Virus record (IMG/VR): IMGVR_UViG_3300005253_001427
Location: 1-37,343 of that record
Length of the DNA: 37,343 nt
Direction: 5' to 3' (one strand)
DNA from: a virus
The translations under genes were made by a program, and so were the position numbers. Shown in pieces: positions 176 through 35,175 of this stretch; position 1 is the first letter of the stretch, and every line of letters begins with the position of its first letter. The notes beneath the pieces were generated by a model. The model worked only from the letters and a program-made list of their open reading frames with translations, was not told where the DNA came from and did no database searches.

Positions 176-296
176 TTAAACGACTTCCTCTTTTATCGTG
201 GCGACCTAATTCATACAGCCAATTTTCCTTTTTCGGCTGTTCCTTAATTCGCCAATACTCACTTTTCAACATTTCTTCAGGTATTTCCCATCCCAT
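144..296 (-). CDS. small hydrophilic protein, coupled to cytidylyltransferase gene
   Basis: This is a 50-residue frame beginning MGWEIPEEMLKSEYWRIKEQ. Its ATG overlaps the TAA of the cytidylyltransferase gene in the arrangement TAATG, a typical sign of translational coupling. It is rich in Glu, Lys and Trp and has no membrane segment or cysteine motif. Its end overlaps the Tat-signal gene. I do not recognise the family. The coupling is the main evidence that it is translated. Confidence 0.5.
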   Translation of the reverse strand: MGWEIPEEMLKSEYWRIKEQPKKENWLYELGRHDKRGSRLNEEDETQTIP

Positions 297-913
297 TATC
301 TTACACCATCAACATAATCGCAAACAAATTCATAATCTTCTCTGGTATTGACGCTGCGGATACCAAGAGCAAGGCAGGGATAAAAGCAAGTTTTCATGTT
401 TTTTCGGATATACTGTGTAACGTGTTCTCTTTCGTCACCTGTGGCATCGAAGTTGGCCTGTTTCAATGCTTCATAACTGAATACCTCAACGTCGCTTCCT
501 TCTCCGTTAAGTTGACCTGTAGTTTCATCGGTATTATATACCAAAGAATCGTAACTATTATTATACGTATATACGCACTTATCAATTTCTTCTGGTCTTA
601 TCAATGGGCAATCGCCCGTCACCCTTACGATAACATCAGCATTTATCTGTCGCGCCGCTTCATAATATTCCCGCACAACATCTCTGCCCTCCCAGGTCGG
701 CATAAAGGCGTCAATATTCCACCTGGTGCAGAGGTCGGCTATCTTCTGGTCGGGGGTCACAACACAGACTTCATCGACCATCGTAGCCAGCAGGACTTTG
801 CGCACAACCATTTCGAGCATACTCACTCCGCTCTCGGGAGGTATCTGGAGCAAGACCTTATTCGGAAGCCTCACAGACGAAAGCCTGGCCTGGATTATTG
901 CTATACAACTAAT
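296..913 (-). CDS. SpsF/NeuA-type cytidylyltransferase with apparent ATT start
   Basis: Nucleotidyltransferase of the SpsF/KdsB/NeuA type, expected to activate a sugar acid with CTP. The conserved N-terminal signature is present only if the frame is read upstream of the first canonical start: IAIIQARLSSVRLPNKVL (family form IIQARMGSTRLPGKVL, here Asn in place of Gly). VIRVTGDCPLI, the metal-binding region of the family, is also visible. A GTG at 874 would remove the signature. Upstream to the in-frame stop there is no ATG, GTG or TTG. ATT at 911-913, 10 nt after GGAGG, gives 205 residues and is the best start. It overlaps the end of the HNH gene by 13 nt. It probably makes the CMP-sugar for the cluster at 7-14 kb. 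Confidence 0.8.
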   Translation of the reverse strand: MSCIAIIQARLSSVRLPNKVLLQIPPESGVSMLEMVVRKVLLATMVDEVCVVTPDQKIADLCTRWNIDAFMPTWEGRDVVREYYEAARQINADVIVRVTGDCPLIRPEEIDKCVYTYNNSYDSLVYNTDETTGQLNGEGSDVEVFSYEALKQANFDATGDEREHVTQYIRKNMKTCFYPCLALGIRSVNTREDYEFVCDYVDGVR

Positions 914-2510: not shown

Positions 2511-3935
2511 TTACTCCGCTCCTCGCCTGAAGAAGCGGGCGCTGCACGAAGGGCAAGCGTCCGAGTGAGGCGGTACCCACATCTTTTGCAGCACATCCGG
2601 CGGCGGCGTTTCTTTGAAATATTTACCGAGATACTGGAGCATCCAGTTTGTGCATTGGTTGAGCCAGCTTTCGTTGACGATAACCATATCTTCACCGCAA
2701 ATGCCACATTTAATCTGCGTACACAGCCTTCGAAGCTCTTTCTGAATTGTGAGTTGCGTATAATCAGTCGTACTCTTAGGCCAGACAAACTTGAATTCGC
2801 CTTTATGTTTACAGATTATCTCCGCGGCCCTTGCGGTCGCCTTGCCGTCCATCTTACCGAAACGGCCCTGTTCCAAATCTTTGATGGTCGCAGGATTAGC
2901 ATTAGACTCTTGCTTACCGGCAAGAATCGCCTTAACAAGCTCCTCCGGGGTCTTGAAGTGTGGGGATATCTTTGATATCGAAGCGTCCGGATCAGCCCAC
3001 CAGTTGCCGGCGTCCTTGGCATTGATATCACCATACTGATAGGCAGGGATATTCAGAAGATGAGCGTTTAAGGCCATGGTAGAGCCTGCGTGGATTATTG
3101 CATCAACGTGGATATTCAGGTAGAAGCTCGTTGATTCGGTGTCCAGCGGGAGTTTAAGTTGATCACATAACTCCTGGTACGGCTTCTGCATTACGCCGGG
3201 ATGGGTCGAGATAAGAACATTCCACTTCTCTCGAAGCACAGAGATTTTCTTTATCATATCGAAGTGCCGGCCTCTTCCGGCCAAGTCCTTCTTAGCACTG
3301 TCGATATCCTCGATATGCAGGTCAGGTGCCGAATCGGCAAATCCCCATGCAGAGCAGACCAGGAGCACAGGTTTTTTGCTGTCGAAGCCATACTTCTTAT
3401 AGAATTTCTTCTTGTCCCGGTGCTTTGCGATAACGTCCTCCCGTTTGTAGGCATCGACCGTAAAGGCGCCGACATAGTGGACATTGAAGGGTACATCTCT
3501 TTTATTGAGAATCTCAGCTTCGTCCTTAGACCAGACGATTTCAGCATCAACCGTGTAGGGGTACCTGCCGTATATCTCCATGGCCCTTGTCATCCCCTCG
3601 GCTTTGTCCTGGGCAAGAATCTTTTCGAAGTCCTTCTTATCGCACGAAGGCTCTGTATGACGGCTTATGACAGCTAAACCGAATTGTTTTAAGACCATTA
3701 CCAAGTCACGGCTGTAGGGATTTCGAATAGGCGGGACAACGACCGTATCGGGTATGAAGCATTTACCATCACCGGTAATGAGCTTATTTAATTCATCAAT
3801 GATAGCGCCCCTGCCTTCTCTGAGGCATGGTCGTACCGATACTTCGTGGCCTTGCTTTTCGAGTTCCTCTTTTATCAGGGCATCGACAATCTTGTCGCGC
3901 GTGGGCGAAGCTGTTAAAATCAAAATTCTGCTCAT
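2511..3935 (-). CDS. surface carbohydrate biosynthesis protein, GT-B-like, with zinc-ribbon tail
   Basis: A 474-residue protein resembling the 'surface carbohydrate biosynthesis' group related to GT-B glycosyltransferases and polyglycerophosphate transferases. The N-terminus has a Rossmann-like strand (RILILTASPTRDK). The C-terminal half shows THPG and DAIIHAGSTMALNAHLLNIP, the sugar-nucleotide pocket pattern of GT-B enzymes. Residues from about 380 add a separate tail with CGIC and CPSC pairs that could bind zinc. In context it could transfer, or hydrolyse off UDP from, an intermediate of the acid-sugar pathway; no PseG or NeuC is otherwise seen. The exact donor and acceptor are unknown. Confidence 0.7.
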   Translation of the reverse strand: MSRILILTASPTRDKIVDALIKEELEKQGHEVSVRPCLREGRGAIIDELNKLITGDGKCFIPDTVVVPPIRNPYSRDLVMVLKQFGLAVISRHTEPSCDKKDFEKILAQDKAEGMTRAMEIYGRYPYTVDAEIVWSKDEAEILNKRDVPFNVHYVGAFTVDAYKREDVIAKHRDKKKFYKKYGFDSKKPVLLVCSAWGFADSAPDLHIEDIDSAKKDLAGRGRHFDMIKKISVLREKWNVLISTHPGVMQKPYQELCDQLKLPLDTESTSFYLNIHVDAIIHAGSTMALNAHLLNIPAYQYGDINAKDAGNWWADPDASISKISPHFKTPEELVKAILAGKQESNANPATIKDLEQGRFGKMDGKATARAAEIICKHKGEFKFVWPKSTTDYTQLTIQKELRRLCTQIKCGICGEDMVIVNESWLNQCTNWMLQYLGKYFKETPPPDVLQKMWVPPHSDACPSCSARFFRRGAE

Positions 3936-4285: not shown

Positions 4286-4915
4286 TTATTTTCTGTTAAT
4301 GATATTAATTATTTTCTTTAAAACATCTTCCGCTTTTTTCCATACGAATGAATCTTTGAAGAATTCTTTTTGTAAATAATCCGGCAAAGACTTTTTGAAC
4401 TCTTCTAATAAGTAATCAGCATATGGGTTTTTGTCTGGATTCTTTTTTCTAAATAAAGCAGCATAATAAACAGCAAAATTGACACTTTTATAATCATGTA
4501 TTTCTGCTGCCTGATAAATAACTTGAATATCGGCGGCCACCTGTTCGAGTCCATAGCTGTGAATATATCCTGTTCCTTGTGTTCTGTTTTCAACATTTAT
4601 CCAAAAATGCTTGTCAACCATTTCATCATAACGGAGTTCGTAAACCCTTTTGCGTTTGCATATCATTACATAACAATGGGGCTTGTAAATTTTACCAAAC
4701 AAACTTTCTATTTTAATTTGTAGCCAATGAGGACAATAACATCCTCCTGGCCTTAATCCACAATATTCGTTTTTAAAATATTTATGCACTATCAATTTTA
4801 ACCCAACGAGTTTTAGTTCGTTTTCTAATTCACGGATTACTTCTGATGTGTGGTGCCATATAAGAGCATTATTTGTCTGTTCAACTGGGATATCATCTGG
4901 TTGTTCATAGCTCAT
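4286..4915 (-). CDS. unknown soluble protein
   Basis: A 209-residue protein with no family I recognise. It has a cysteine cluster CGLRPGGCYC at about residues 52-61 and later CYVMICKRKR, which could bind a metal. The C-terminal third is Lys-rich and helical. Its start overlaps the end of the upstream kinase gene in an ATGA arrangement, so the two are probably translated together. Confidence 0.65.
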   Translation of the reverse strand: MSYEQPDDIPVEQTNNALIWHHTSEVIRELENELKLVGLKLIVHKYFKNEYCGLRPGGCYCPHWLQIKIESLFGKIYKPHCYVMICKRKRVYELRYDEMVDKHFWINVENRTQGTGYIHSYGLEQVAADIQVIYQAAEIHDYKSVNFAVYYAALFRKKNPDKNPYADYLLEEFKKSLPDYLQKEFFKDSFVWKKAEDVLKKIINIINRK

Positions 4916-5370
4916 TTTATCCTCACAATTTCATCGAATTCATCTAACGTTGGCGGCTCAAAGGCACGCATCTCAGTCTCAACAAGGGTCACTAAATCCA
5001 TTTTTCTGTGTGGTTTACGTTTCCTGCGCTTCACGTACCAGTCCACAGGCTTGTGCGTAGGCATCAGAAACGCCACAAACTTATCAGCGTGCAGATTCTT
5101 CCACTTTCCCCGCCGGTCATCTGCTTTTGTCAGGTTTCCACAGTCGATAATCACATTGTATCCGGCCTGCAGGAGATTCTCGGCGGCATCGAATGTGCTC
5201 TGGGTAATCACATCGTCCATTTCGGGAAGGTATTTATATTCACCGTTAAACATCGTCCTGAATGCGTCCGGTGACACTATCCTTGTGTCGGGATGATATT
5301 TGACGTACTCCTTGGCGTAGGTGCTTTTTCCAGAGCCGGAGAATCCTATGGTCATAAATACGGTGTTCAT
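4912..5370 (-). CDS. P-loop kinase of polynucleotide kinase / zeta-toxin type
   Basis: A 152-residue AAA_33-type P-loop kinase. The Walker A motif is GFSGSGKST at residues 9-17. The VSPDAFRTMFNGEY segment after strand 2 matches the substrate-binding DxxR region of the T4 polynucleotide kinase N-terminal domain. NVIIDCGNLTKADR(R) is the Walker B and Arg-lid region, with RRGKW following. It lacks the phosphatase domain of T4 Pnk, so the expected activity is 5' phosphorylation of a nucleic acid or a small molecule. It is joined by ATGA overlaps to both neighbours. In this context a sugar or RNA-repair substrate are both possible. Confidence 0.82.
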   Translation of the reverse strand: MNTVFMTIGFSGSGKSTYAKEYVKYHPDTRIVSPDAFRTMFNGEYKYLPEMDDVITQSTFDAAENLLQAGYNVIIDCGNLTKADDRRGKWKNLHADKFVAFLMPTHKPVDWYVKRRKRKPHRKMDLVTLVETEMRAFEPPTLDEFDEIVRIK

Positions 5371-5699: not shown

Positions 5700-5956
5700 T
5701 GCGTCTCCTCTGGGATATATCTTAATATTCCTTCTTCATCATATTTCAATTCATCAGAAAATATGTCGGCATAATAACCGTCTTTATTGTGGTCTATTCC
5801 GGCAGTGAATTTTTTCATTCTTATTGGTTTGTTTAATGATTTAGGACAACATACTGCTAAATCTTCAGCAGCAAATATCTCTACGTACTTCCGGTCATAT
5901 TTCACCGACAGTATTTTATAAGGCCGCGTATTTACAAAAACTCTTACTTCTCTCAT
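5696..5956 (-). CDS. unknown small protein
   Basis: An 86-residue protein, mixed alpha/beta in appearance (VRVFVNTRPYKILSVKYDRKYVEIFAAEDL), with an acidic C-terminus. It overlaps both neighbours by ATGA. I do not recognise it. Confidence 0.6.
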   Translation of the reverse strand: MREVRVFVNTRPYKILSVKYDRKYVEIFAAEDLAVCCPKSLNKPIRMKKFTAGIDHNKDGYYADIFSDELKYDEEGILRYIPEETQ

Positions 5957-6579
5957 TGTTCTTTCGGCCTCCTGATTTCGAGCCCGTCACCGCCCATGCT
6001 TGCGGTAGGCCCAAGGCGATAAATAGTATGCGTCATTAATCTGCACAGCCAATTCTCAATGCACCACTTTTCTATGTGGTAGTCATATCCGTAATCGTAC
6101 CTACGAGAAAACGGATGCTCGTCCCATCTAACCTTTATACCCTTACCCGTTGCGATACCACACCAGTATTGCAAACAAGCAGATTCCACTGTCCTTTCTC
6201 TCGGTGAGCCTTCGTCCATATTCAAGCCCCAAAGTTCTATTTCCTCAAACCCCAGATGTATAGCCAATGCCATTTCGTAGGCCATCGTACAAGTGAAATA
6301 TGGGATAGACCACGGATGTGCGAGTATCTTTTTCAGAGGATAAACTATACCGGTAGGCACAAGCAGAGTCTCCTCGAGGACGTAAATAGGCTTCTTGCAG
6401 TTCTTGAGGAATTCAAGCTCCCTTTCGTTTTGTACGTCCATCGGGTGCATCTCAAACATTAAATCATACCGCTCTGGCTCGAATTCATTTAGCGTCCAAA
6501 TCTCATAACTATCGTCGTCATACGGCGCCTTCTCGTGGCTTTTTCCACAACCCAAAATCACTAATTTCTTTCTTCTCAT
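5953..6579 (-). CDS. Rossmann-like phage protein of unknown function
   Basis: A 208-residue protein starting KKLVILGCGKSHEKAPYDDD, a glycine-rich first strand-loop, followed by YEIWTLNEF and RYDLMFEMHP. This order matches a widespread but uncharacterised group of phage proteins with a nucleotide-sugar-like or MptE/DUF115-like Rossmann fold. A later stretch has IELWGLNMDEG and a conserved HPW. It could act on a nucleotide-activated substrate given the neighbours, but this is only inference. ATGA overlap with the next gene downstream. Confidence 0.6.
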   Translation of the reverse strand: MRRKKLVILGCGKSHEKAPYDDDSYEIWTLNEFEPERYDLMFEMHPMDVQNERELEFLKNCKKPIYVLEETLLVPTGIVYPLKKILAHPWSIPYFTCTMAYEMALAIHLGFEEIELWGLNMDEGSPRERTVESACLQYWCGIATGKGIKVRWDEHPFSRRYDYGYDYHIEKWCIENWLCRLMTHTIYRLGPTASMGGDGLEIRRPKEQ

Positions 6580-6592
6580 ATATAGTCCTCTC

Positions 6593-6733
6593 TTAGTCCT
6601 GCTTATCCTTCAAAACCTTTTCGATACATTCGAAGCCTGCCAATAGTACAACTGCTATCAGAATAGAACCGTAATCACCTGTCGCCAAACATAAAACAAA
6701 CGCAATCATCATTACTACCGTCACAAACGCCAT
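6593..6733 (-). CDS. 46-residue membrane protein
   Basis: A small frame (MAFVTVVMMIAFVLCLATGD...) that fills the gap between two larger genes. Two hydrophobic segments at about residues 2-18 and 22-38 are followed by a charged tail (KVLKDKQD). GGAG lies 5 nt before the ATG at 6733; the ATG one codon earlier is too close to it. Function unknown. It is one of several tiny membrane proteins in this accessory block. Confidence 0.6.
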   Translation of the reverse strand: MAFVTVVMMIAFVLCLATGDYGSILIAVVLLAGFECIEKVLKDKQD

Positions 6734-6771
6734 CATTTCTCCAATATCAGCCTTAGCGTTTTAGCTTTCAT

Positions 6772-7182
6772 CTAAGTTAATAGCTTTGGCATTTCTGTTT
6801 TTTCAAGACTTGCAATATTCTCAGGCAGTCTCATAAAGTCACCTACAGTTGAGCCGTCCGGCAAGCACATTTTAGACAAAAACTGGTCTTCAAATGTTTC
6901 TCCGCCACCATCAATTTCTTCGAGTTTCATCTTCAAAGACATATAAAATATCCTCCACCTTTGGCGAATGGCCTGCTCGTATTGCCGTTCAGTCATCCTT
7001 CCGCGGTCAGGCATTGTCACATTGAATTTATACATTTTCCCTTCATGCTTGAATCCAATACCATCGCCTCGTGAGCTTCTGGCGAAGAAAAATTCTTCTA
7101 TGCCCCAATTAGTTATCAAATCTTCAATTTGAGTTTTTGATTTTGATATTGTCACTGTCGTGTTTTTCGCATACTTTGCCAT
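6772..7182 (-). CDS. conserved phage protein of unknown function
   Basis: A 136-residue protein of a type frequent in phage genomes: MAKYAKNTTVTISKSKTQIE, then RWRIFYMSLKMKLEEIDGG and FEDQFLSKMCLPDGSTVGDF. These three blocks (N-terminal 'K-T-T-V', a central arginine-rich helix, and LPDG-T-V-G) are the recurring signature of the group. Its function is not established. It sits four bases after the acyltransferase-like gene. Confidence 0.75.
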   Translation of the reverse strand: MAKYAKNTTVTISKSKTQIEDLITNWGIEEFFFARSSRGDGIGFKHEGKMYKFNVTMPDRGRMTERQYEQAIRQRWRIFYMSLKMKLEEIDGGGETFEDQFLSKMCLPDGSTVGDFMRLPENIASLEKTEMPKLLT

Positions 7183-7186
7183 ATAA

Positions 7187-7945
7187 TCATTTCTCCAAAA
7201 TCAGCCTCGTAATCGTCTGGCCTCCAAACCCACGCTTATATTTCGATATATTCACCAGCTTCAAATCCCCTGCGAATATTTGCTCGCCCATTTCCAGAAA
7301 CTTATACCCAGAGTTTTTCAGAAGTCCCATCGCCATATAAATAGCGGTATGATTATTCTCGCCGGCGGCGCTGGCGTAGTAAGCTGCCGGCTTATTACAG
7401 TAAAACATGGCCCCGGCCTTGCCGTCGGTCAGGCACAAGGGTTTCATCCGGTGCTGAATCTCCCACGTCCGATCGCTTCGCCTGGGCCCTTTTATCGTTT
7501 CGCACATTTGCCGGTATTCAGGGACTTTTACGATATTCCACACATCGGTCTTATTTACCAGGCTTTTATAAGACTTCCTCAGACCGCAATGCAGATCCTC
7601 TACGCTGCGGGTCAAATCGATTATCTGAGTGTAGTAAGGCCTGGCCGTGTGTCCGTGCCGCAGTAGAAACTGGCTTATCACCGAGAGCCTGCCGTCTATC
7701 AGGAAGTCCAGGTAAGTGATATGAGGGCATATATCGTAGAGACGCTCAATATGTAGCTTAAGGGCCTTATCGCCGCCTGTGGCTACCATGGGCCTCCAGA
7801 AACCTGATATACGATTGTCTTTGAGCCCTGCGATAACTTTACAATCATCATCGTGAAACGAGAGGTCCTCGTAAGGGCCTGACATCGCTTGCGAATATTC
7901 GACATCCAAAGAGCTGTATAAGGCTGTGTATGCGTTAAGCTTCAC
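7187..7945 (-). CDS. FemAB/GNAT-like acyltransferase
   Basis: A 252-residue protein resembling the FemAB-like N-acyltransferases found in surface-polysaccharide and acid-sugar clusters. Typical features are IIDLTRSVEDLHCGLRKSYK with SLVNK (the 'L-R-K-x-Y-K-x-x-(I/V)-N' block), AGAMFYCNKPAAYYASAAGE (acceptor and CoA side) and the C-terminal NISKYKRGFGGQ. It starts with GTG at 7945 after AAGGATG. It is likely to acylate the amino group of a sugar intermediate, as this family does next to NeuB-type synthases. The exact acyl donor is unknown. Confidence 0.72.
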   Translation of the reverse strand: MKLNAYTALYSSLDVEYSQAMSGPYEDLSFHDDDCKVIAGLKDNRISGFWRPMVATGGDKALKLHIERLYDICPHITYLDFLIDGRLSVISQFLLRHGHTARPYYTQIIDLTRSVEDLHCGLRKSYKSLVNKTDVWNIVKVPEYRQMCETIKGPRRSDRTWEIQHRMKPLCLTDGKAGAMFYCNKPAAYYASAAGENNHTAIYMAMGLLKNSGYKFLEMGEQIFAGDLKLVNISKYKRGFGGQTITRLILEK

Positions 7946-8037
7946 TTCAATTCATCCTTTTTTTTCTCGTACTTTTCGTTCATACGCCAGTGAAGGAATA
8001 AGGACTTACGTCAATTTTAGCGATTTTTTTAACTTGA

Positions 8038-8068
8038 CACCCTCATTTCTGAGCCAAAAACGAGGGTG
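8038..8068. repeat. hairpin beside the 8.1-kb palindrome
   Basis: CACCCTC at 8038-8044 pairs with GAGGGTG at 8062-8068, leaving a 17-nt loop. There is no U-run on the minus-strand side, so this is not a standard terminator for the upstream genes. With the adjacent palindrome it forms a 70-nt structured gap between the small membrane gene and the acyltransferase gene. Confidence 0.45.
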
Positions 8069-8080
8069 AAATTGTAAATC

Positions 8081-8107
8081 CTATGGGGTGAACTGTTCAC
8101 CCCATAG
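8081..8107. repeat. 27-bp perfect palindrome, copy 1
   Basis: The arms CTATGGGGTGAAC and GTTCACCCCATAG (13 bp each) surround a single T. An identical palindrome lies at 29582-29608. The flanking AATTGTAAAT is shared too, on the left here and, in inverted orientation, on the right there. The stop codon of the small membrane gene lies inside it. It could be a protein-binding site, a terminase recognition site or a 3' RNA hairpin; no U-tract follows on either strand. Confidence 0.85.
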
Positions 8108-8330
8108 ACCCCGATTCCAACTCCCCAGCCGGGATACCGAACCACAAAAACGCCAAAATCGAAGTAATTTGTCTTGACAAAATCCCATAATCCAAAATCC
8201 CCAATACTACGCCAAAAATCAGGTTCGCCGCTTGTGCTTGCGAAAGTAAACCTATTAGATTCTCTGCTTTTAATTCCCAAGGTAAATCAGAAGCCCCGAT
8301 TGCGTAGGCTAAATCTTCAAGTGCTGCCAT
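8097..8330 (-). CDS. small membrane protein
   Basis: A 77-residue frame beginning MAALEDLAYAIGASDLPWEL, with a helical N-terminus and a hydrophobic segment at about residues 36-62 (NLIFGVVLGILDYGILSRQI...). Its start overlaps the end of the GNAT gene by 14 nt and its stop falls in the 27-bp palindrome. The overlapping frame on the same strand (8029-8280) is rejected because it lacks such coupling. Confidence 0.55.
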   Translation of the reverse strand: MAALEDLAYAIGASDLPWELKAENLIGLLSQAQAANLIFGVVLGILDYGILSRQITSILAFLWFGIPAGELESGSMG

Positions 8331-8883
8331 GATTATTGAAGTCCTCCTTATCTATTGAGAAGCAAAGGCTGTCGTAATATTCTCCCTGCCAGTATTTGCG
8401 ATTAGGCAAATCTAAATAACCTGTTTTGGCAAAGCCACAATATTTTCCAGTTACTTTCTGCCAAAACTCCCATGCCGGATTACATCGGTAGCACTCCCCG
8501 AAAACCGTATGTAAATTCAAATAGTTAAACGCCTGGTCGAGGAGAAGGTCAACGGCTTTTATGCCAATACCCTGACCACGTTGCTCCTGATGGAGAATAA
8601 GGCTTATCTCACCGATGCGATTCTCCCATTGGATATTAGTGATGCCTCCCATGCCGAAAAAATAATACTCCTTAACTGTGGAGTCCTCCTTGGAGACGAC
8701 GTAAGAGTCATCGACTATCGCAAAATACCGGTGTTGGCTATTGCGATTACAGACTACGTCCCTGTAAAACGCTTCCTGTTGCTCCTCAGTCAAGGGATAG
8801 GGAGTCCTGAGCGTCTCAAGACAGTCGTTCCGCCAGATACGCACTGTCTGGCATTGGTCTAATGTGAGAGCTTCAAGTTTCAT
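8317..8883 (-). CDS. GNAT N-acetyltransferase (RimJ/PseH-like)
   Basis: A 188-residue GNAT protein. The acetyl-CoA loop is QRGQGIG at residues 101-107, preceded by the GEISLIL strand. The N-terminus (LDQCQTVRIWRNDCLETLRT) is typical of RimJ/RimL-type and PseH-type enzymes, and the C-terminal FGECYRCNPAWEFWQK matches motif B. In pseudaminic and related pathways a GNAT acetylates the amino sugar made by the aminotransferase, and the aminotransferase gene lies two genes upstream here. The start overlaps the previous gene by ATGA. Confidence 0.85.
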   Translation of the reverse strand: MKLEALTLDQCQTVRIWRNDCLETLRTPYPLTEEQQEAFYRDVVCNRNSQHRYFAIVDDSYVVSKEDSTVKEYYFFGMGGITNIQWENRIGEISLILHQEQRGQGIGIKAVDLLLDQAFNYLNLHTVFGECYRCNPAWEFWQKVTGKYCGFAKTGYLDLPNRKYWQGEYYDSLCFSIDKEDFNNHGST

Positions 8884-9191
8884 CCTGTATCCTTCGCTTT
8901 CTTCATTTCATTATGAATAAGTAATATCCCTGCAAGTTGTAGCCAATTTAACGCCTCAATTCTTTCGCCTGTAAACCAGCAGGACAAGGCAACAATAACA
9001 GCGAAAAATATGATTATATACTCAATCATTTTGCATCCTTTTTTAGCATAAATACAGAGTAAAGTTTTTTGGGGATCTACACCAAACAATTTGAACGACT
9101 TACCCCAATCACTATGACCACTTGATATTGTATAAAAAGCACAAATCAAGATACTGATAATTATATATATCGGAACTAATATCATATCCAT
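8880..9191 (-). CDS. membrane protein with nested second start
   Basis: A 103-residue protein with an N-terminal membrane helix (residues 3-22, ILVPIYIIISILICAFYTI), a loop and a second hydrophobic region at 56-92. AAGGAAGGAAGG precedes the ATG at 9191. A second in-frame ATG at 9029 has AAGGATG just upstream and begins MIEYIIIFFAVIVALSCW, which would make a 49-residue membrane protein alone. The stop overlaps the GNAT start. Function unknown. Confidence 0.6.
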   Translation of the reverse strand: MDMILVPIYIIISILICAFYTISSGHSDWGKSFKLFGVDPQKTLLCIYAKKGCKMIEYIIIFFAVIVALSCWFTGERIEALNWLQLAGILLIHNEMKKAKDTG

Positions 9192-9213
9192 AATTATTCC
9201 TTCCTTCCTTCAT

Positions 9214-10530
9214 TCACTCACACTTCTGGAAAGTCCAGTGTTTTTTGCCACACTTCTTACAGTCCGGCATAGCTTTCGTCTGTTCCGGGGCCGGGGTAGT
9301 TACTAAGCGAAGTGTCTCTTCGGCAGGGATACCTACGAGAGCATCCTGCGGTTTGTCCCAGAATTTATTGACCATCTTCATGGCCTGCCGTATAACGGAT
9401 ATTGTCTTATCGATATCGGTCAAGTCGTGAGAGTATCCCACAAATTGGGCATGACCGAAGAATATCCCCTGCTTGAGGCACTCCTGCCAAAACAGACTCT
9501 TATGAGCAGCCGTCGGGAAGATGAAGTGCGTCCTCGGAGGCAGGCCAATACACTTGATATCCTCACCCTTCATTATGGCCTGCGCGGCCTGATTAAAAGC
9601 GGTTTTCATCTTAGATCCCATTACCCAGATATGCTCGATAGCAGCCTTGTTACGCAGCACCTTGATAGTAGCTATCGCCGCCGAGATACCCAGTAGATCG
9701 CCGCCGAAGGTGCTCGATACGAAACAGTTGGATTCCAGTACCTTCATAATGTCCCTGTTACCGCCGAAGCACGCCATCGGCACACCGTTAGCCATGGCCT
9801 TGCCGAAACACGATAAATCCGGCTTTATCTTCCAGTGATTCTGCGCCGAGAGCTTTCTCGTCCTGAACCCGGTAACATTCTCATCGAGGATCATAACGGT
9901 CTTATGGACTGTGCAGAGCTTTCTGACCTCCTTGAGCCACTTCTCTACACGCCCTTCATCCTCATACACATAAGGCTCCAGTATGAAAGCGGCAGGCTTC
10001 TTCTCGACGAGCAGCTCTTCGAGCTTTCTCACGTCACCCCATTTTACAGGTGTTACATCCTGCTTGACTGAGCCGGCGTTTTTGGGAGTCGTGCAGTTGT
10101 ACCACGAATGCCAGCCATGATAACCGCAACAAAGAATAGGCTCCCGGCCAGTATATGCTCTCGCCACCCGGACGGCAGCCTGGCAGGACTCCGAGCCGGT
10201 CTTGACGAAACGCATCATCTCCATCGAGGGAAATACATCGTGCATGAGTTCTGCTAATTCAGTCTCTTTCGGGTGTGAGAGTGAGAATAGAGTGCCTTTC
10301 TTTAACTGCTCAGTAACCGCTTCAACAACGGCGGGGTAGGCATGCCCGAGTATAGTCGCACCCAGACTGCACGGATAGTCGATAAATTTTCTACCGAGGG
10401 CATCGAATATCTTAGAGCCTTTTCCGTACTCTATCCATTCCGGATAAACGTCCGCGACATGACAACAGACTCTTTTGCTCAAAGTTTGTACCCCATCAGG
10501 TATCAGTGTCGTTGTTTGTTTCCAAGTCAT
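9214..10530 (-). CDS. class III PLP aminotransferase (glutamate-1-semialdehyde aminomutase family) with C-terminal zinc-ribbon tail
   Basis: A 438-residue PLP enzyme. The cofactor-binding features are visible: FVKTGSES phosphate loop near 108-115, HGWH at 138-141, Asp216 in LDENVTGFR (usual form DEVxTGFR) and the Schiff-base Lys244 in PDLSCFGKAMANGVPMA. Relatives in flagellin-glycan and nonulosonate clusters aminate keto-sugars in place of a DegT-type PseC. After the catalytic domain a linker leads to a tail ending CKKCGKKHWTFQKC, which looks like a zinc-binding addition. It overlaps the next gene's stop by four bases. Confidence 0.88.
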   Translation of the reverse strand: MTWKQTTTLIPDGVQTLSKRVCCHVADVYPEWIEYGKGSKIFDALGRKFIDYPCSLGATILGHAYPAVVEAVTEQLKKGTLFSLSHPKETELAELMHDVFPSMEMMRFVKTGSESCQAAVRVARAYTGREPILCCGYHGWHSWYNCTTPKNAGSVKQDVTPVKWGDVRKLEELLVEKKPAAFILEPYVYEDEGRVEKWLKEVRKLCTVHKTVMILDENVTGFRTRKLSAQNHWKIKPDLSCFGKAMANGVPMACFGGNRDIMKVLESNCFVSSTFGGDLLGISAAIATIKVLRNKAAIEHIWVMGSKMKTAFNQAAQAIMKGEDIKCIGLPPRTHFIFPTAAHKSLFWQECLKQGIFFGHAQFVGYSHDLTDIDKTISVIRQAMKMVNKFWDKPQDALVGIPAEETLRLVTTPAPEQTKAMPDCKKCGKKHWTFQKCE

Positions 10531-10883
10531 TTTTTTGCCTCTTTCTCTTCTCTTAATAAAATGATTGCAAGTATCGAATACAAAGCATTGTCCATCAGTG
10601 TATCTTCGATAGATTCGTTCTTAACTTCCAAAACCCCCTGTTGCATGAATGATTCGAGCCTCGCCCACTTGTCGGTGAGTCTTACCATAACACCGGTAAA
10701 AGGCGTAATACCCATATCCCGACACTTATATAAGTTGCGGAGAGGTATCGACTTAATACCATAGTCGTGATTCTTGCTCGAATGCAGTTCCGCCATCTCG
10801 GCCAGTAACTCAAAGAAACCGGGATGCCCGTGAAAATCGGGATTGTCAAATACAGCTTTGAGATCTTCCTTGATTGTACTCAT
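10527..10883 (-). CDS. Nmad1-like (DUF1599) protein
   Basis: A 118-residue protein, start chosen at 10883 where GGAGGTG lies 6 nt upstream; the frame is open further up but would run into the reductase gene. It contains SSKNHDYG near residue 38, GVMVRLTDKWARLESF and SIEDTLMDNALYSILAI, the pattern of the nucleotide-modification-associated domain 1 proteins of phages. These occur near DNA or nucleotide modification genes, but the biochemical role is not established. Here it sits between the reductase and the aminotransferase. Confidence 0.75.
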   Translation of the reverse strand: MSTIKEDLKAVFDNPDFHGHPGFFELLAEMAELHSSKNHDYGIKSIPLRNLYKCRDMGITPFTGVMVRLTDKWARLESFMQQGVLEVKNESIEDTLMDNALYSILAIILLREEKEAKK

Positions 10884-10884
10884 A

Positions 10885-11532
10885 TCACCACCTCCTCGTA
10901 TCCAGCAATTCTTCATCGTGCCTTTCGAGATTCTTCCATCGATGGAGAAAGTCCAGATTTCTCTGTAACTGCTCAAACGAGTCCACCCCGATTATCACCT
11001 TGTCGATATACGGATTACACAGGCAGAATTTTATACATTCGCAAGGTTCTATGCCGTCCTTGAGTATCCGGCCTCGCAGGAAGATACTGCGGACGTGGAT
11101 TTCAACGTCATCTTCCTTCAACTGCTCAAAATCACTTTCGAATCTCCTGTCATAGAGTGAATAGGGTAACTGCACTATTCTTAAAGTATCATTCTCGCCA
11201 ATCTCAAGCAAATCTTCTGGCGAATATACAGACACAGAATCTAAACCAACTTCCCCAAACACTTTCATATTATGTGCCATAATTGCGTAAGGCTCGATTT
11301 CTAAGACTTCTGCGACCTCATCAACACTCTGCACCTTGATTATCTTATTGAAGTAGCTGTTGGGACGGTCGAAATCGTTGCCGTAAGCCGTTGCCATGTC
11401 TAATGTGTCGATACCTGACGTTTGGCAATAACCAAGCACTTTCGTAATGTTTTTGTCTGATAATCGGGAGCCATTATAAGGTTTATCCCAATTTGCGCAT
11501 CCTATGGCAATACGAGAGAATAAGTTAGGCAT
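10885..11532 (-). CDS. short aldo/keto reductase
   Basis: A 215-residue protein with the aldo/keto reductase opening (RIAIGCANWDKPYNG), the active-site Asp and Tyr in IDTLDMATAYGN, and an AHN motif at the place of the usual active-site His. The final IIGVDSFEQLQRNLDFL matches the NADP-binding end of the family. It is shorter than the usual 280-320 residues, so part of the barrel is reduced. AKR genes recur with PseI/SpsF/aminotransferase clusters, where they may supply or reduce a sugar precursor. Start at ATG 11532, with AAGGAG 5 nt upstream, is preferred over GTG 11538. Confidence 0.78.
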   Translation of the reverse strand: MPNLFSRIAIGCANWDKPYNGSRLSDKNITKVLGYCQTSGIDTLDMATAYGNDFDRPNSYFNKIIKVQSVDEVAEVLEIEPYAIMAHNMKVFGEVGLDSVSVYSPEDLLEIGENDTLRIVQLPYSLYDRRFESDFEQLKEDDVEIHVRSIFLRGRILKDGIEPCECIKFCLCNPYIDKVIIGVDSFEQLQRNLDFLHRWKNLERHDEELLDTRRW

Positions 11533-11534
11533 AA

Positions 11535-11924
11535 TCACTCCTTATCGTGGATAGTGCCGATGATTTCAATGTTAATGACATTGTGTTTAATTAGCATATC
11601 CCAGGCGGGTAAGCCTTTAACACAATAGGCTAAACGTTTTTCGCAAAAATAAACTTCTCCTTTGTAACGAATATCTGTGCCAAATGCTTTAATAACATTA
11701 AACGCGATTATATCGCCAACGTAACCTTCTTTTTTGTTCTTGTCTTTGAGGCCGGTCTGCTGGCCTACTGTTTCGGGGATGACTTGGACAAAAGTCAAAA
11801 CAAATGAAGCTGGTGTATGATACTTATCTGTAATTGGTATAATGTATGCAGCACCGGCTCGCTCAAAATACCATCCATAGATAAAGTCCTTATCGTCTAT
11901 TGGTAAGCCTCTGTAAGGTCTCAT
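11535..11924 (-). CDS. YopX family phage protein
   Basis: A 129-residue protein. VGQQTGLKDKNKKEGYVGDIIAF is the YopX signature (usual form Q-x-TGL-D-x-N-G-x-E-I-Y-E-GDIV). The start is the ATG at 11924, which shares its A with the TAA stop of the preceding gene (TAATG). YopX proteins are frequent in phages; their biochemical function is unknown. Confidence 0.82.
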   Translation of the reverse strand: MRPYRGLPIDDKDFIYGWYFERAGAAYIIPITDKYHTPASFVLTFVQVIPETVGQQTGLKDKNKKEGYVGDIIAFNVIKAFGTDIRYKGEVYFCEKRLAYCVKGLPAWDMLIKHNVINIEIIGTIHDKE

Positions 11925-12121
11925 TACAGCCACACTCTCGGTACTTTGACTATCTGTTTCGCTCCGCACTGAGGACACTCATGTTCATAAGTCCCCGGCT
12001 CAAGCACTATCATGCCCGGGAACTTATGCTCCGGGTGTTGACAAGGTATCGGTGGTGCGTCAACTATTTTTCGGAGTCCACTTTTTTCTTTTACCGTTAG
12101 CATTTCTTTTACCGTTAGCAT
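11924..12121 (-). CDS. small zinc-ribbon protein with duplicated N-terminus
   Basis: A 65-residue protein with PCQHPEH and ECPQCG, a likely zinc-binding CxxH/CxxC set. Its first 12 residues are the same six repeated (MLTVKE MLTVKE), produced by an exact 18-bp tandem duplication that also duplicates the ATG. AAAGGAG lies 7 nt before the first ATG. Stop and next start overlap as TAATG. Function unknown. Confidence 0.65.
   Translation of the reverse strand: MLTVKEMLTVKEKSGLRKIVDAPPIPCQHPEHKFPGMIVLEPGTYEHECPQCGAKQIVKVPRVWL
12086..12121 (-). repeat. 18-bp exact tandem duplication at gene start
   Basis: Two identical copies of ATGCTAACGGTAAAAGAA in direct succession at the start of the zinc-ribbon gene. 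The exact identity points to a recent slippage duplication. Only the outer ATG is well placed for the ribosome-binding site. Confidence 0.9.
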
Positions 12122-12143
12122 TTTAATTCTCCTTTAGAAAAAT

Positions 12144-12203
12144 AAAAGCCGGGAGTTCTGAGCGCAAATCTTAACAGTGAAAGAAGTGCCTCCCGGCTTT
12201 TTG
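12144..12203. terminator. bidirectional terminator with 35-nt loop
   Basis: AAAAGCCGGGAG (12144-12155) pairs with CTCCCGGCTTTT (12191-12202) in a 12-bp stem. Read on either strand it ends in a U-rich run, so it can terminate transcripts both ways. On the minus strand it follows the dehydratase gene, separating it from the downstream reductase and aminotransferase genes. The 35-nt loop is much longer than in a normal terminator. Confidence 0.75.
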
Positions 12204-12277
12204 ATTCATCGAAATACACTGTTGTTATTACGCTCATTACAACAGCAATATACAGCAGCCTAAAATCCTGTCAAGGA

Positions 12278-13150
12278 TTATTTTAATAATTTTTGAAATT
12301 CTTCTGAGGTGAGCCAATCGGTATTCGTATCGGAGGTATATCCATCGTCCAGTTCCTCGTGAAGTTTCTCTGATTTTTGCAGGCCGATGAATTTGAAGGT
12401 GCACTCCGGGTCGATAGCCCGGGCCACATCGGTTATCTTCATCGAAGGCAGTCTCGGGATATGAAGGGTTTCAGCCTTTTCGGCTGTAAGGTGCTTTAGT
12501 ACGGCCTTGGCCGCCTGCTCTAAGGTCATCCAGAAGCGCGTACAGTTGGGATCAGTTATCGGGAATTCATGGATCCCCTGCTCTTTGAGTTTCAGAAAAT
12601 ACTCGACTACAGAGCCGCGACTATTGACGACGTTGCCGTACCGGATGATCCGGAAGCAGGTCTTACTGTAGATATTAGCCGCCGCAAAGAGCCTTTCGGC
12701 GGTGAATTTAGTAGCTCCGTAGAGATTTCGAGGGGATGGGCTCTTGTCTGTAGAGACCAGCACAGCCCTCTTGACGTTATTTTTCATACAGGCATCGACT
12801 ATATTGGAGCTGCCTATAATATTGGTCTGGACGGCCTCCAGCGGATTCTCCTCGCACATACGGATATGCTTGAGAGCGGCGGCGTGAATGACGTAATCGA
12901 CCTTATCGCAGCACCACGACAGCCTGTCTTTGTCCCTTACGTCACCGATACGAAAACGAAGCCAGGGGACACCTTCGAACTTTTTCATCATCAAGTGCTG
13001 GTTGTACTCGTTGCGACTGTATATGATGACCTTCTTAGGAAAGCCAAATTGATAAGATGGTCTGGCCTTATTTATCTCCTCTATGAGCGCATTTCCTAAG
13101 CTGCCGCTTCCACCCGAAATGAGTAGTGTTGAATTATCGAGTGTCGCCAT
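12278..13150 (-). CDS. pseB: PseB-type UDP-sugar 4,6-dehydratase
   Basis: A 290-residue extended short-chain dehydrogenase. NAD-binding motif GGSGSLG at residues 13-19; VIHAAALKHI at 87-96; catalytic region STDKSPSPRNLYGATK at 133-148 with Thr134/Asp135/Lys136 and Tyr144/Lys148. This is the pattern of FlaA1/PseB UDP-GlcNAc 4,6-dehydratases (and of LegB-type homologues), the first step of pseudaminic and legionaminic acid synthesis. It is some 40 residues shorter than usual PseB. It overlaps the preceding cysteine-rich gene by 17 nt; a terminator lies downstream. Confidence 0.88.
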   Translation of the reverse strand: MATLDNSTLLISGGSGSLGNALIEEINKARPSYQFGFPKKVIIYSRNEYNQHLMMKKFEGVPWLRFRIGDVRDKDRLSWCCDKVDYVIHAAALKHIRMCEENPLEAVQTNIIGSSNIVDACMKNNVKRAVLVSTDKSPSPRNLYGATKFTAERLFAAANIYSKTCFRIIRYGNVVNSRGSVVEYFLKLKEQGIHEFPITDPNCTRFWMTLEQAAKAVLKHLTAEKAETLHIPRLPSMKITDVARAIDPECTFKFIGLQKSEKLHEELDDGYTSDTNTDWLTSEEFQKLLK

Positions 13151-13598
13151 AGCAAAATTTCCTTATGTCCCTTTTAAGCCTCAAAAACAGTGAATCTATA
13201 TGGTCTTTCAAGATAACGCCTCTCACAAAAAGAGTAACCGGCTTTACCTGTATCCACCTACCTGTTTTCCAGACCATACGGCTGTATTTGAATTCGCACA
13301 TATAAAACGAGTCCTGCCTGCAATCATAAGCTCTGCACTCCGCCGGCATGTCCTCCCGTTTAAGACGACATCCTGTTTCCGGATCATAAAACCCCTCTTT
13401 GAAATCATGCCTTGCCTTTAATGCCGCTTTAACATATACGTCAGGCCGTGCCTTGCCGTCCCATTCGGTCCACAAGTGCCTGTTCTCGTCCGTGAGATAC
13501 TGTTTCTTAGTCCTGTAGCAGTTATTGCAGCAGATACCGTCAATGAAGACATCGTTTACCGCTGGACAATTCAGGTCGCATTTGAAGTCTTTTGCCAT
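13134..13598 (-). CDS. cysteine-rich protein of unknown function
   Basis: A 154-residue protein with ten or so cysteines: CDLNCPAVNDVFIDGICCNNC at the N-terminus and GCRL...ECRAYDCRQ in the middle. This spacing recalls small iron or zinc-chelating domains (YkgJ-like), but I would not assign it. It lies between the synthase and dehydratase genes, overlapping both (28 and 17 nt), so it probably belongs to the sugar pathway or its carrier system. Confidence 0.65.
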   Translation of the reverse strand: MAKDFKCDLNCPAVNDVFIDGICCNNCYRTKKQYLTDENRHLWTEWDGKARPDVYVKAALKARHDFKEGFYDPETGCRLKREDMPAECRAYDCRQDSFYMCEFKYSRMVWKTGRWIQVKPVTLFVRGVILKDHIDSLFLRLKRDIRKFCYGDTR

Positions 13599-14434
13599 AC
13601 TACCCTTAGCATTTCGCCATTCATTTTTTTGCGATGATAACTCTTAGTTCGGTCGTAGTCAACCTTGCCCATTATCAACTCTGCCTGGCGGACAATATCG
13701 ACCATCGCCGCAAACTTATCTGGGAATACGGCGAAAGAAGCGTCGAGGTTATCGTCATCAAGCTTTATGTGGGTCTCTATCACGCACGCGCCGAGAGTTA
13801 CCGCCATCAGCGGCACCGACAAGGCCTGAGTATGATTACTGAGTCCGAGTTTCTTGCCGAATTTCCTCATATCTTCGAGCATAACCAGATTCATATCACT
13901 GGTCTTTGCCGGGTACTCCGATACGCAGTACAGTAGGACAACATCTTTGTACTTGAGTATCTCAAGGGCTGCGGTAATCTCCTTCTCAGTACCCCCTCCA
14001 GTACTGAGAAGAATCTTTTTAACATAAGGGTCTTTTGCTAACTCTGTCAATAATTCGACATAATTAAGCTCGAATGAAGCGATTTTGACCGTTTTTACCC
14101 CTAACTCTGCCAGAATCGGCACGGTATTAGGGTGATATACGCTAAGGATGAATTCGAGTCCCGCCGATTTAGTAGCCCTTCGAAGGTCAGGGAGCCATTC
14201 GTAAGGGATCGCTATCTCATCGTAAAGGTCGTATAGATTTCTGCCGGACCATGGGCCTTCCGTAATAACAAAAGGAGGGTCGCCACTCTTGAGGGTCATT
14301 TCTTCGGGCTTGAAAGCTGAAAACTTTACAGCATCGGCGCCGGCGGCCCGCGCCGCATCGATAAGTGCAATACAGCGAGCGTAACTCTTTCTGTGCGCTG
14401 CGCCTGTCTCGGCAATTATAAATACTTTACGCAT
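13571..14434 (-). CDS. pseI: NeuB-family nonulosonate synthase (PseI-like)
   Basis: A 287-residue TIM-barrel synthase that condenses phosphoenolpyruvate with a six-carbon sugar. IIAETGAAH (Glu9, His14) and AGADAVKFSAFKPEE match the NeuB start. GPWSGRNLYDLYDEIAIPYEW is the form typical of pseudaminic acid synthase PseI. LSNHTQALSVPLMAVTLGACVIETHI is the conserved C-terminal barrel block. The antifreeze-like SAF domain that normally completes the active site is absent (family about 340-350 residues). Start set at 14434, inside the end of the adaptor gene (8-nt overlap); the frame is open further upstream but would overlap the adaptor gene more. Confidence 0.9.
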   Translation of the reverse strand: MRKVFIIAETGAAHRKSYARCIALIDAARAAGADAVKFSAFKPEEMTLKSGDPPFVITEGPWSGRNLYDLYDEIAIPYEWLPDLRRATKSAGLEFILSVYHPNTVPILAELGVKTVKIASFELNYVELLTELAKDPYVKKILLSTGGGTEKEITAALEILKYKDVVLLYCVSEYPAKTSDMNLVMLEDMRKFGKKLGLSNHTQALSVPLMAVTLGACVIETHIKLDDDNLDASFAVFPDKFAAMVDIVRQAELIMGKVDYDRTKSYHRKKMNGEMLRVVWQKTSNAT

Positions 14435-15179
14435 TTCCCCATTCGGCAGTTTGATAGAAATTTTGCTCCCAGGCAACTGCCTGGTCCTGCATATCACGAA
14501 ACTCCTCAAGCCAGCCTATCGTCTCACCCCTGCCCGGATTCGGATTCGTCCATGCCTTCTTGGCATTAGCGATCTCAGCAGCCACCGAGGGATTGCTCAT
14601 ACCGATAGCTTTCCACGACTGCCATACCCCGTAGAGGATAATGCCCTCGTCGGCCCTGCTGATATCACTGAGTTCCGTGCTGTCGGTAGTAAAATCAGCG
14701 GCGTAGTAATCGCCGTCAAATCTGAGGTCCTTGTCCCAATACGAACTGGCGCAGTATGGGTACATCTCGATAAAGACATTACCCCTCTGTGTCCAGTAGG
14801 CAGGCTTTTCGAAATTCATATCACTGTGGGTCGGGTCCGGATGTTCTGCGTCAAACAGGTCCACAGGCTGATAAGTAAGTCTGCGGGTATCCTGACCATC
14901 GAGGTACCATACGTCTGTAATGTGAAATGGCCGATTCTTATCGGTATCATCGCCAACAGTGATATCGGCTATCGCATATTTAATGGTACCGGTCGTATCG
15001 AATGATTCGGTATTCTTAAACACATTCGAGCGCAGTAGCGGTATTCCCTCAACGATGAGCTTCTGAGCTTCATTGATACGCCTTGTGAGCCAAGTGGTAT
15101 CGATAAGGTCAGTCGTATTCGGCCTGCCGCATCGCTCTTGAATTTCATCAATTATCTCGCTACACGGAAGAGCACACAT
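14427..15179 (-). CDS. head-tail adaptor/connector protein
   Basis: A 250-residue protein of the phage adaptor type. EIIDEIQERCGRPNTTDLIDTTWLTRRINEAQ is the usual opening helix pair of head-completion adaptors, followed by a beta-rich middle and WQSWKAIGMSNPSVAAEI...WLEEFRDMQDQ helices at the end. It should dock under the portal. It is the last recognisable structural gene before the sugar genes and overlaps the synthase start by 8 nt, so the virion and sugar genes share a transcript. Confidence 0.72.
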   Translation of the reverse strand: MCALPCSEIIDEIQERCGRPNTTDLIDTTWLTRRINEAQKLIVEGIPLLRSNVFKNTESFDTTGTIKYAIADITVGDDTDKNRPFHITDVWYLDGQDTRRLTYQPVDLFDAEHPDPTHSDMNFEKPAYWTQRGNVFIEMYPYCASSYWDKDLRFDGDYYAADFTTDSTELSDISRADEGIILYGVWQSWKAIGMSNPSVAAEIANAKKAWTNPNPGRGETIGWLEEFRDMQDQAVAWEQNFYQTAEWGNA

Positions 15180-15989: not shown

Positions 15990-16754
15990 TTAAGCCGCAC
16001 TGTCGCAGACCCAGCCGATTGCAAGAGCGCCGGGGTCAGAAAGCGTTACACCTGTAGTCAGGTCGTGAATATTCGACTCGTCGGCACTCATCAGCCACGC
16101 AGCCGCACCAGTGGAACACAGGAAGACAGGTCCTTTGTGAATATCTTCGTCACAGGTAAAGTCGAAGCCCTTGCCTGCACCGTCGGCCTTATTGTCGAAC
16201 ATCGTGACGTCCTTAATCGGACACACGCCACCAACCCACGCCCAGCCGTAACCGTCGCCATAGCCTTGGGTGGCTACGACAGTTCCGTCGCTATAGGTAT
16301 AGGTGGAGCAGAAAATCGCAACCGGACCGCCACTTTTACTCATGTCGTTACCCGTGATACATCTTGAGGTCACGAACCAAGGCGCTCGTGATGTGTCGGC
16401 CCATTCGGTAGTCGAGATACATAAGAGGCCCAAGCCCGATGCATGGAAGAAGTGTCCGTCACTGAAATCATACGAAATATCCATGCCGTCCTCGAAAGAG
16501 TGCAGGCACAGGTACATCATGGTGTAGTAGCCCGGATTCTCCGTGCTCTCGTGATACGCCTGACGCTTTTCGCCGATACGTGTCCTGTTGTGACCGGCCT
16601 TAGCCGCCGAGGCATTGAGAGCACGAGTGGTCTCGTCGGCAGAACTGTAGTTGTCAACAGTATTGTCCCAGCCCTTTCCGGCGGTGCCGCAACCCTTGGT
16701 CCTGTTAGGGTAAACTGCATGTGGCATAGGCACACCGGGCCAGTTGTCGTACAA
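15990..16754 (-). CDS. virion-like protein, paralogue B2, with frameshifted N-terminus
   Basis: A paralogue of the 233-residue protein upstream: both share DNWPGVP, GWDNTVDNYSS-DET-RA-NAS, YTMMYLCLHSFE-GMDIS-DFSDG, GYGDGYGWAWV-GVCP-KD and end in WVC-SAA. The best start in this frame is a TTG at 16754, which lacks a ribosome-binding site. The well-placed ATG at 16786 (preceded by AAAGGAGA) is in another frame. Adding one A to the AAAA run at 16761-16764 joins them as MATINIFQKLVLYDNWPGVP, matching MANLRLTKLILEDNWPGVP of the paralogue. So the N-terminus carries either a one-base deletion or a sequence error. Probably a surface-exposed virion protein. Confidence 0.65.
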   Translation of the reverse strand: MYDNWPGVPMPHAVYPNRTKGCGTAGKGWDNTVDNYSSADETTRALNASAAKAGHNRTRIGEKRQAYHESTENPGYYTMMYLCLHSFEDGMDISYDFSDGHFFHASGLGLLCISTTEWADTSRAPWFVTSRCITGNDMSKSGGPVAIFCSTYTYSDGTVVATQGYGDGYGWAWVGGVCPIKDVTMFDNKADGAGKGFDFTCDEDIHKGPVFLCSTGAAAWLMSADESNIHDLTTGVTLSDPGALAIGWVCDSAA

Positions 16755-16836: not shown

Positions 16837-17538
16837 CTAAGCTGCCGAAGCACAAACCCAGCCAACTCTTAAGGAATTCTCAGCTTGTGCCAGAAGTGCT
16901 TTAGAGCCATTCCGGCGTAAGGACACAGGTCCACATGCAAGATCGTCATCGACCTGTATCTCGACTCCTTTAAGAGAGCCGGTCTCATCATCGAATATCG
17001 TTATGTCCTTACAAGGGCAAACACCTTCAACCCAAGCCCAACCGTAGCCATCGCCATAACCTTTGGCGTTGACATCGGTTCCATCGCTGTACGTATGGGT
17101 AGAACAGAAAATCGCTACCGCACAATTTCGGGTAACGTCACTACCTGTAGTACACCGGGAAACTACAAAATATGGGCCGGTTGAAATGTCCGCCCAGACA
17201 GAACAGGATATACAACCCGTACCGGAGGGCATGTGGAACATATTACCGTCGCTGAAATCCTTAGATATATCCATGCCGGACTCAAATGAGTGCAGGCATA
17301 AATACATCATAGTATAACTCCCCTTGCAGTTGGTGTTGTCGGTATATCCACGACGTTTCTCACCAATACGTACACGGCTTTTTCCGCCGGAAGCATTAAA
17401 AGCCCGAGAAGTCTCGTCCGAGGAACTGTAGTTGTCAACAGTATTGTCCCAACCGTTAGTCGGCTTAGAATATCTCTGATCCGGAACTCCCGGCCAGTTA
17501 TCTTCTAATATTAACTTAGTAAGTCTTAAATTTGCCAT
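16837..17538 (-). CDS. virion-like protein, paralogue B1
   Basis: A 233-residue protein located directly after the major capsid gene. It is beta-rich, aromatic and Gly/Asp-rich (GYGDGYGWAWV), with about ten cysteines and no membrane segment. It has a diverged copy immediately downstream. The family is unknown to me; place in the operon and duplication suggest a head decoration or fibre protein. Confidence 0.68.
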   Translation of the reverse strand: MANLRLTKLILEDNWPGVPDQRYSKPTNGWDNTVDNYSSSDETSRAFNASGGKSRVRIGEKRRGYTDNTNCKGSYTMMYLCLHSFESGMDISKDFSDGNMFHMPSGTGCISCSVWADISTGPYFVVSRCTTGSDVTRNCAVAIFCSTHTYSDGTDVNAKGYGDGYGWAWVEGVCPCKDITIFDDETGSLKGVEIQVDDDLACGPVSLRRNGSKALLAQAENSLRVGWVCASAA

Positions 17539-34917: not shown

Positions 34918-35175
34918 ATGTACCTGGGACAAATATCAGCCGCCGATGAACCGGAGGCAAAGAAAAGATTGGATATATTAGTTGATTGGAAAGAGACAAA
35001 TCTGGCTTCTGAAAAAGACCTTGTTATTCGACAGGCTGTAAGGTCGGTTTGGATAGCAGAGGTATTTTATGAGGGCCGAGTTGGCCTTCGCGTCATAAAC
35101 CTCTCGTTGCCGCTGCATTTACAAACTTACCAATTAGGACAGCACATAGCTGAATTAAGACCAGATGACAAATAA
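34918..35175 (+). CDS. unknown small protein
   Basis: An 85-residue protein (MYLGQISAADEPEAKKRLDI) with a beta-rich second half. Its end overlaps the start of the DNA methyltransferase by 11 nt. GTGAGG precedes the ATG. No family recognised. Confidence 0.58.
   Translation: MYLGQISAADEPEAKKRLDILVDWKETNLASEKDLVIRQAVRSVWIAEVFYEGRVGLRVINLSLPLHLQTYQLGQHIAELRPDDK

Follow-up and report, generated by a model that had tools for sequence, protein, structure and literature searches.

A cassette of eight enzyme genes for the synthesis and transfer of a nonulosonic-acid-type sugar was found within the virion gene block of an uncultured phage, and comparison with related contigs supports well that the cassette is core to this phage lineage. 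The DNA analysed, referred to here as the window, is the linear IMG/VR virus record IMGVR_UViG_3300005253_001427, which is 37,343 bp long. Judged by their families and arrangement, the enzymes probably build, activate and transfer a nonulosonic (sialic-like) acid, perhaps onto the virions. The eight genes are listed below, with lengths in amino acids (aa).

13571..14434, minus strand: NeuB/PseI-type nonulosonic acid synthase, 287 aa (PF03102, E 3e-58; TIGR03586 PseI, E 1.6e-70)
12278..13150, minus strand: PseB-type UDP-N-acetylglucosamine (UDP-GlcNAc) 4,6-dehydratase (TIGR03589, E 3.8e-95; PF02719, E 2.6e-74)
10885..11538, minus strand: short aldo/keto reductase (AKR), 217 aa (PF00248, E 0.013 when searched alone)
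9214..10530, minus strand: class III pyridoxal phosphate-dependent aminotransferase of the sugar-cluster glutamate-1-semialdehyde aminotransferase type (PF00202, E 7.7e-46; NF004856, E 2.4e-81)
8317..8883, minus strand: GNAT N-acetyltransferase with a proposed PseH-like role (PF13302, E 4e-12)
7187..7945, minus strand: FemAB/GNAT-like acyltransferase (TIGR04421, E 1.5e-5, a weak match)
2511..3935, minus strand: GT-B enzyme with a C-terminal CxxC/CPxC motif (NF046086, E 1.9e-16; AlphaFold GT-B fold)
296..913, minus strand: SpsF-type cytidylyltransferase, a CTP transferase (PF02348, E 2.4e-19; IIQARLSSVRLPNKVL motif)

In profile searches all eight enzymes were located on the capsid-gene strand, as an earlier note on this DNA had proposed. 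Ahead of them on this minus strand, between 30161 and 14427, lie genes for the small terminase, the large terminase (TerL), the portal, a scaffold-like protein, the major capsid protein and the adaptor-like protein. The same note had placed the eight in one block at 7187-14434; six were found inside this interval, with the GT-B and SpsF genes lying beyond it. The block is interrupted by unrelated small genes (154 aa, 147 aa, DUF1599, 103 aa, 136 aa, a polynucleotide kinase and an HNH gene). The GC content of the enzyme genes (0.43-0.51) is similar to that of the virion genes (0.45-0.55), and several of the small intervening genes are richer in AT. At the upstream edge of the cassette lies the following gene.

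14427..15179, minus strand: adaptor-like (head-tail) gene, directly upstream of the cassette, with the insertion site at its 3' end

The start of the synthase gene does overlap this gene, by 8 bp (ATGCGTAA, 14427-14434). Across the lineage the adaptor-like protein is conserved at 35-51%, its gene lying immediately ahead of NeuB. No match to it was found in Pfam or PHROG, and the name is therefore taken from its position and conservation.

Scans of viral contigs with one protein at a time (NeuB, TerL or the aminotransferase) gave no matches, and profile alignments were needed. Profile scans returned 28 viral loci with aminotransferase relatives (loci and contigs are numbered L). The order adaptor, NeuB, PseB, AKR, aminotransferase, GNAT, FemAB-like, GT-B, SpsF was fixed in about a dozen loci (L012-L022, L026), within the reach of each, and in those contigs portal, scaffold and capsid genes lay upstream. 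Repetition of these genes, order included, across about a dozen further contigs cannot be put down to chance. To avoid selecting on the cassette itself, a separate search was made with the capsid protein, giving 26 contigs. Where capsid identity was at least 53% and the contig was long enough, NeuB came directly after the adaptor-like gene in every case (15/15), and the remaining order was kept as far as the sequence extended; with likely repeat assemblies among these 15 (L212-L214, L215/L216), about 12 are distinct. The sister contig L224, with 42% capsid identity, is cassette-free: its adaptor-like gene (6212-6910) runs straight into the virion gene that follows (6910-7755). Distances among the NeuB, PseB, aminotransferase and SpsF proteins correlated with those of the capsid and adaptor proteins (Mantel r 0.69-0.92). 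No such correlation was seen for AKR, which is absent from some members. The nearest terminase among annotated phages, that of Roseobacter phage CRP-7, is distant (28% identity), and the lineage is therefore poorly known.

The synthase scored above the PF03102 cut-off for the NeuB domain and matched the solved PseI 8h2c at a phmmer E of 2e-47. Its metal- and phosphoenolpyruvate (PEP)-binding residues E9, K37, K117, H201, E220 and H222 are conserved. The best curated model was PseI (TIGR03586) at 237.9 bits, below the equivalog cut-off of 340 bits. No SAF (antifreeze-like) domain was present in the window protein, which ends after the catalytic barrel, or in any of the lineage relatives examined (10/10). 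Among solved bacterial synthases, 6ncs is comparably short at 290 aa, so the SAF-less protein is still compatible with synthase function. The dehydratase matched the UDP-GlcNAc C6 dehydratase 2gn4 (phmmer E 4e-75), and its TIGR03589 score of 318.6 bits is under the equivalog cut-off of 407.75 bits. The triad rule for PseB-type inverting 4,6-dehydratases is T-x9-M/Y-x3-K (PMC7439481). The window protein has T-x9-Y-x3-K (STDKSPSPRNLYGATK), which is kept in the aligned lineage members. For the aminotransferase, whose family is annotated as glutamate-1-semialdehyde aminotransferase, Lys244 and Asp216 are kept, and all lineage copies form one clade with a support of 100.

In L009, SpsF is fused to an aminotransferase, and the SpsF half of that fusion is 35% identical to the SpsF protein of the window. 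No ATG, GTG or TTG start covers the N-terminal motif of the window protein; its likely start is an ATT at 913-911, preceded by AAGGAGG, which would make the gene overlap the HNH gene's end. Provided that this ATT is allowed, the nucleotide-binding motif is complete. For the CMP-sugar synthetase step of the Pse pathway, this SpsF-type CTP transferase with its intact motif is a candidate. Loss of active-site residues, which the earlier note had named as a ground for refutation, was thus not observed in the synthase, dehydratase, aminotransferase or SpsF. The AKR matched a 284-aa cellular AKR by tblastn (E 3e-8), and its relative in L026 matches PF00248 at 9e-5. Candidate Asp, Tyr, Lys and His residues are present in the window protein, with the His replaced by R in L014 and L020. 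AKR is the most dispensable cassette member and was not found in L018 or L222. Against PHROGs, neither AKR, NeuB nor SpsF gave a match at E 0.01. The GNAT protein matched the PseH model TIGR03585 weakly (E 0.002), and in the FemAB-like protein an FKxGFGG motif is invariant across the lineage alignment.

The GT-B enzyme is common to the lineage, with 11/11 members matching NF046086 and TIGR04396, NCBIfam glycosyltransferase and surface-carbohydrate models (best 5e-25); the window protein's own match to these models is below cut-off. Its AlphaFold model (predicted local distance difference test, pLDDT, 77) gave a tie, with a best Z of 20.1 for UDP-GlcNAc 2-epimerases and 19.1 for TarL/TagF-type transferases, and none of the solved structures matched its profile by sequence. 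It is a proposed glycosyltransferase, a role favoured by the sequence families and not separated from a 2-epimerase by the structure search. A second candidate transferase is encoded within the block.

5953..6579, minus strand: 208-aa protein, candidate CMP-nonulosonate transferase with a predicted Maf/GT42-sialyltransferase-like fold

Its profile matched CstII at E 0.006. The AlphaFold model (pLDDT 80) gave VIA Z 11.3 to Maf 5mu5, a flagellin glycosyltransferase, and 10-11 to CstI/CstII, with Cst and Pasteurella enzymes together at 9.8-10.8; HPPK and thiamine pyrophosphokinase came next at 8.4-9.7, making the Maf/GT42 lead modest. Only three members of the lineage have this protein in their cassette, and in other phage contigs (L125, L132, L137, L143, L146, L178) relatives are encoded close to NeuB.

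Other genes of the window were also noted.

13134..13598, minus strand: Cys-rich 154-aa protein, beside NeuB in several relatives (26-33% relatives in L013, L014, L020, L021 and L026)

The polynucleotide-kinase-like P-loop protein inside the block (4912-5370; phrog_505, E 1.5e-19) has a 56% relative in L026, similarly placed just 5' of the GT-B gene. The opposite-strand arm carries a C5-type DNA methyltransferase at 35165-35983 on the plus strand (phrog_116, E 4e-58). Directly after the capsid gene, 16837-17538 and 15990-16754 encode two paralogous proteins, present in 1-3 copies in relatives; they are possible decoration proteins and possible sugar acceptors.

A route can be proposed from these assignments. 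The PseB-type dehydratase, whose family and triad were seen, would convert UDP-GlcNAc to a UDP-4-keto-6-deoxy sugar. The class III aminotransferase would then aminate C4 in place of PseC, and the GNAT protein, perhaps also the FemAB-like protein, would acylate the amino groups. Removal of UDP is a gap in the set, for which host PseG and possibly the GT-B enzyme are candidates. The SAF-less NeuB/PseI synthase, with its family and residues in place, would condense the hexose with PEP, and SpsF would form the CMP-sugar. Transfer would be by the GT-B enzyme, in some members also by the Maf/GT42-like protein, a role suggested by the folds. AKR would serve an accessory step, since some members are without it. 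No strongly hydrophobic, transmembrane-like segments were found in the conserved cassette enzymes, and these enzymes are placed amid virion genes; for both reasons a cytoplasmic virion protein is the likeliest putative acceptor.

Several points weigh against this reading. No DegT-type PseC was found in the window or the lineage loci by tblastn with four DegT queries, and no PseG UDP-sugar hydrolase with three PseG-type queries. The genes alone are therefore not obviously sufficient to make and activate the sugar, as the earlier note had suggested they could; a nonulosonic-acid-type cassette stands, with the canonical Pse set incomplete. In viruses, the class III aminotransferase may substitute for PseC, because the two types tend to exclude each other: among 69 other viral NeuB+PseB loci, 18 had the class III aminotransferase only, 27 DegT only, seven both and 17 neither (Fisher p 0.012, a test that ignores the relatedness of loci). 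It may instead perform a different, additional step, since cellular clusters with AKR, SpsF and this aminotransferase have PseC and usually PseG. With SAF missing from NeuB, its substrate cannot be deduced from family membership, the modelled GT-B fold suits UDP-GlcNAc 2-epimerases equally with TagF/TarL transferases, and the AKR and FemAB assignments are weak. The record is a partial, linear fragment of an uncultured virus, and none of the three acceptors suggested in the earlier note (virion, adhesin, host surface) is singled out by the evidence. The detailed version, in which the phage makes a nonulosonic acid by a PseC- and PseG-free route and decorates its virions with it, with the class III aminotransferase replacing PseC and cytoplasmic attachment by the GT-B enzyme, is put forward as a tentative and rather improbable whole.

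Viral NeuB loci were surveyed by a profile-guided scan of IMG/VR, which found a NeuB relative in 446. Among the best 80 of these (L120-L199) most also had PseB, and PseG was present in only 2/69 NeuB+PseB loci; viral nonulosonic acid sets thus look systematically hydrolase-free. The earlier note's statement that phages rarely carry so much of such a pathway is right in part: viral NeuB loci are numerous, and the eight-gene set with its own GT-B looks lineage-specific.

That the block is host chromosome attached to a prophage, the other ground for refutation in the earlier note, or a misassembly is highly improbable. All the enzyme families occur in bacteria too. Against this stand the same virion-gene junction in all 15 long-enough capsid relatives, the cassette-free sister L224 and the matching GC of enzyme and virion genes, so the cassette is taken to be phage-borne. 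It may, with a low probability, act on the host surface (capsule, O-antigen or flagellin), for example to block superinfection, using a host flippase and host glycan acceptors. Prophage capsule-modifying enzymes are documented, some of them acting on pseudaminic acid in Acinetobacter (PMC12053666, PMC6586298), and the Maf/GT42-like protein and GT-B family are typical of surface glycans. However, the cassette lies within the virion block and is co-inherited with the capsid, its conserved genes include no flippase, polymerase or membrane glycosyltransferase, and no integrase was identified in this partial record.

It is also conceivable, if rather unlikely, that the product is a related but different sugar acid, or that the cassette branches off a host pathway, with host PseC and PseG at work and the phage altering or boosting the pool. 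The lack of PseC and PseG in the lineage and the scarcity of PseG in viral loci fit such an arrangement. In Methylomagnum, a cluster with transketolase and HAD genes, which is not a Pse pathway, likewise contains a class III aminotransferase and a SAF-less NeuB. On the other side, the dehydratase and synthase match PseB and PseI far better than any other family, and the genes for synthase, dehydratase, activation and transfer are the phage's own. Synthesis and transfer of a nonulosonic acid by the phage's own cassette is the preferred reading.

Phage sugar genes are usually viewed as scattered extras. An eight-gene cassette at one fixed junction, co-evolving with the capsid and missing from a sister, points to a selected trait in the phage life cycle, and the sister provides a natural comparison with and without it. 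The idea that phages make sialic-like acids for their own coats, with fewer steps than bacteria use, becomes testable; if it is right, the sugar pathway would be unusually complete for the size of the virus. The class of finding is known, as viral NeuB genes are common and pseI was already listed for marine phages in a review (PMC6359870). The partial literature covered held no report of this cassette, and the fixed cassette, its PseC-free make-up and the cassette-free sister are new as far as found.

Among known systems, GtfS of Tannerella forsythia is a GT-B protein roughly 450 aa long that has pse genes next to its own and was shown to transfer pseudaminic acid (PMC6120980, PMC6388019). The phage GT-B enzyme is alike in fold, approximate length and gene setting, and it matches the NCBIfam BFO_1060 family, a possible relative of GtfS. 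The marine virus AG-345-L05 (Kyanoviridae; L007, MH319754.1, an unannotated record) has a glycan island at 8430-13816, near a psbA-like gene. As in the window, a SAF-less NeuB, an SpsF-like protein and a GT42-like protein lie close together; unlike the window, it has a DegT aminotransferase and a larger cyanophage-type genome with a photosystem gene, and no PseB or class III aminotransferase was found within the stretch read. Two cellular models for the class III aminotransferase were rejected. In the Sinorhizobium rkp-3 Pse locus RkpM is the PseC orthologue (PMC7591256) and the class III gene close by is part of a different cluster, and the matching plasmids of Neorhizobium, Qingshengfaniella and Natronosalvus have no annotated synthase nearby. 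Many aminotransferase matches in phage collections fall in short or unannotated records resembling host DNA.

With the canonical CMP-pseudaminic acid pathway (PseB, PseC, PseH, PseG, PseI, PseF) the phage set shares the PseB and PseI families, an acetyltransferase and a CTP transferase; it differs in having no DegT-type PseC and no PseG, SpsF for PseF, and a SAF-less synthase. SpsF acts in the legionaminic acid pathway of B. subtilis, whose sps genes (PMC7439481) match the phage in a UDP-linked dehydratase with the T-x9-M/Y-x3-K triad, an SpsE-type synthase and SpsF. In contrast, the phage is without SpsC (DegT) or SpsG and has a class III aminotransferase and AKR. Related clusters occur on the Pseudosulfitobacter plasmid pSMR1-1 (L009: pseB, pseC, AKR, GNAT, SpsF-aminotransferase fusion, pseG, pseI), in the Legionella Sg6 nonulosonic-acid locus, which clusters the same enzymes (PMC3694923), and in Vibrio B9-25K2, where an SpsF-AKR fusion lies in the nonulosonic-acid locus (PMC7371886). 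Unlike the phage, these three carry a DegT/PseC aminotransferase and mostly also PseG. Like the phage, all combine genes of the PseB and PseI/NeuB types with a nearby AKR and with SpsF or a different CMP transferase, and the plasmid and Legionella clusters also include a class III aminotransferase.

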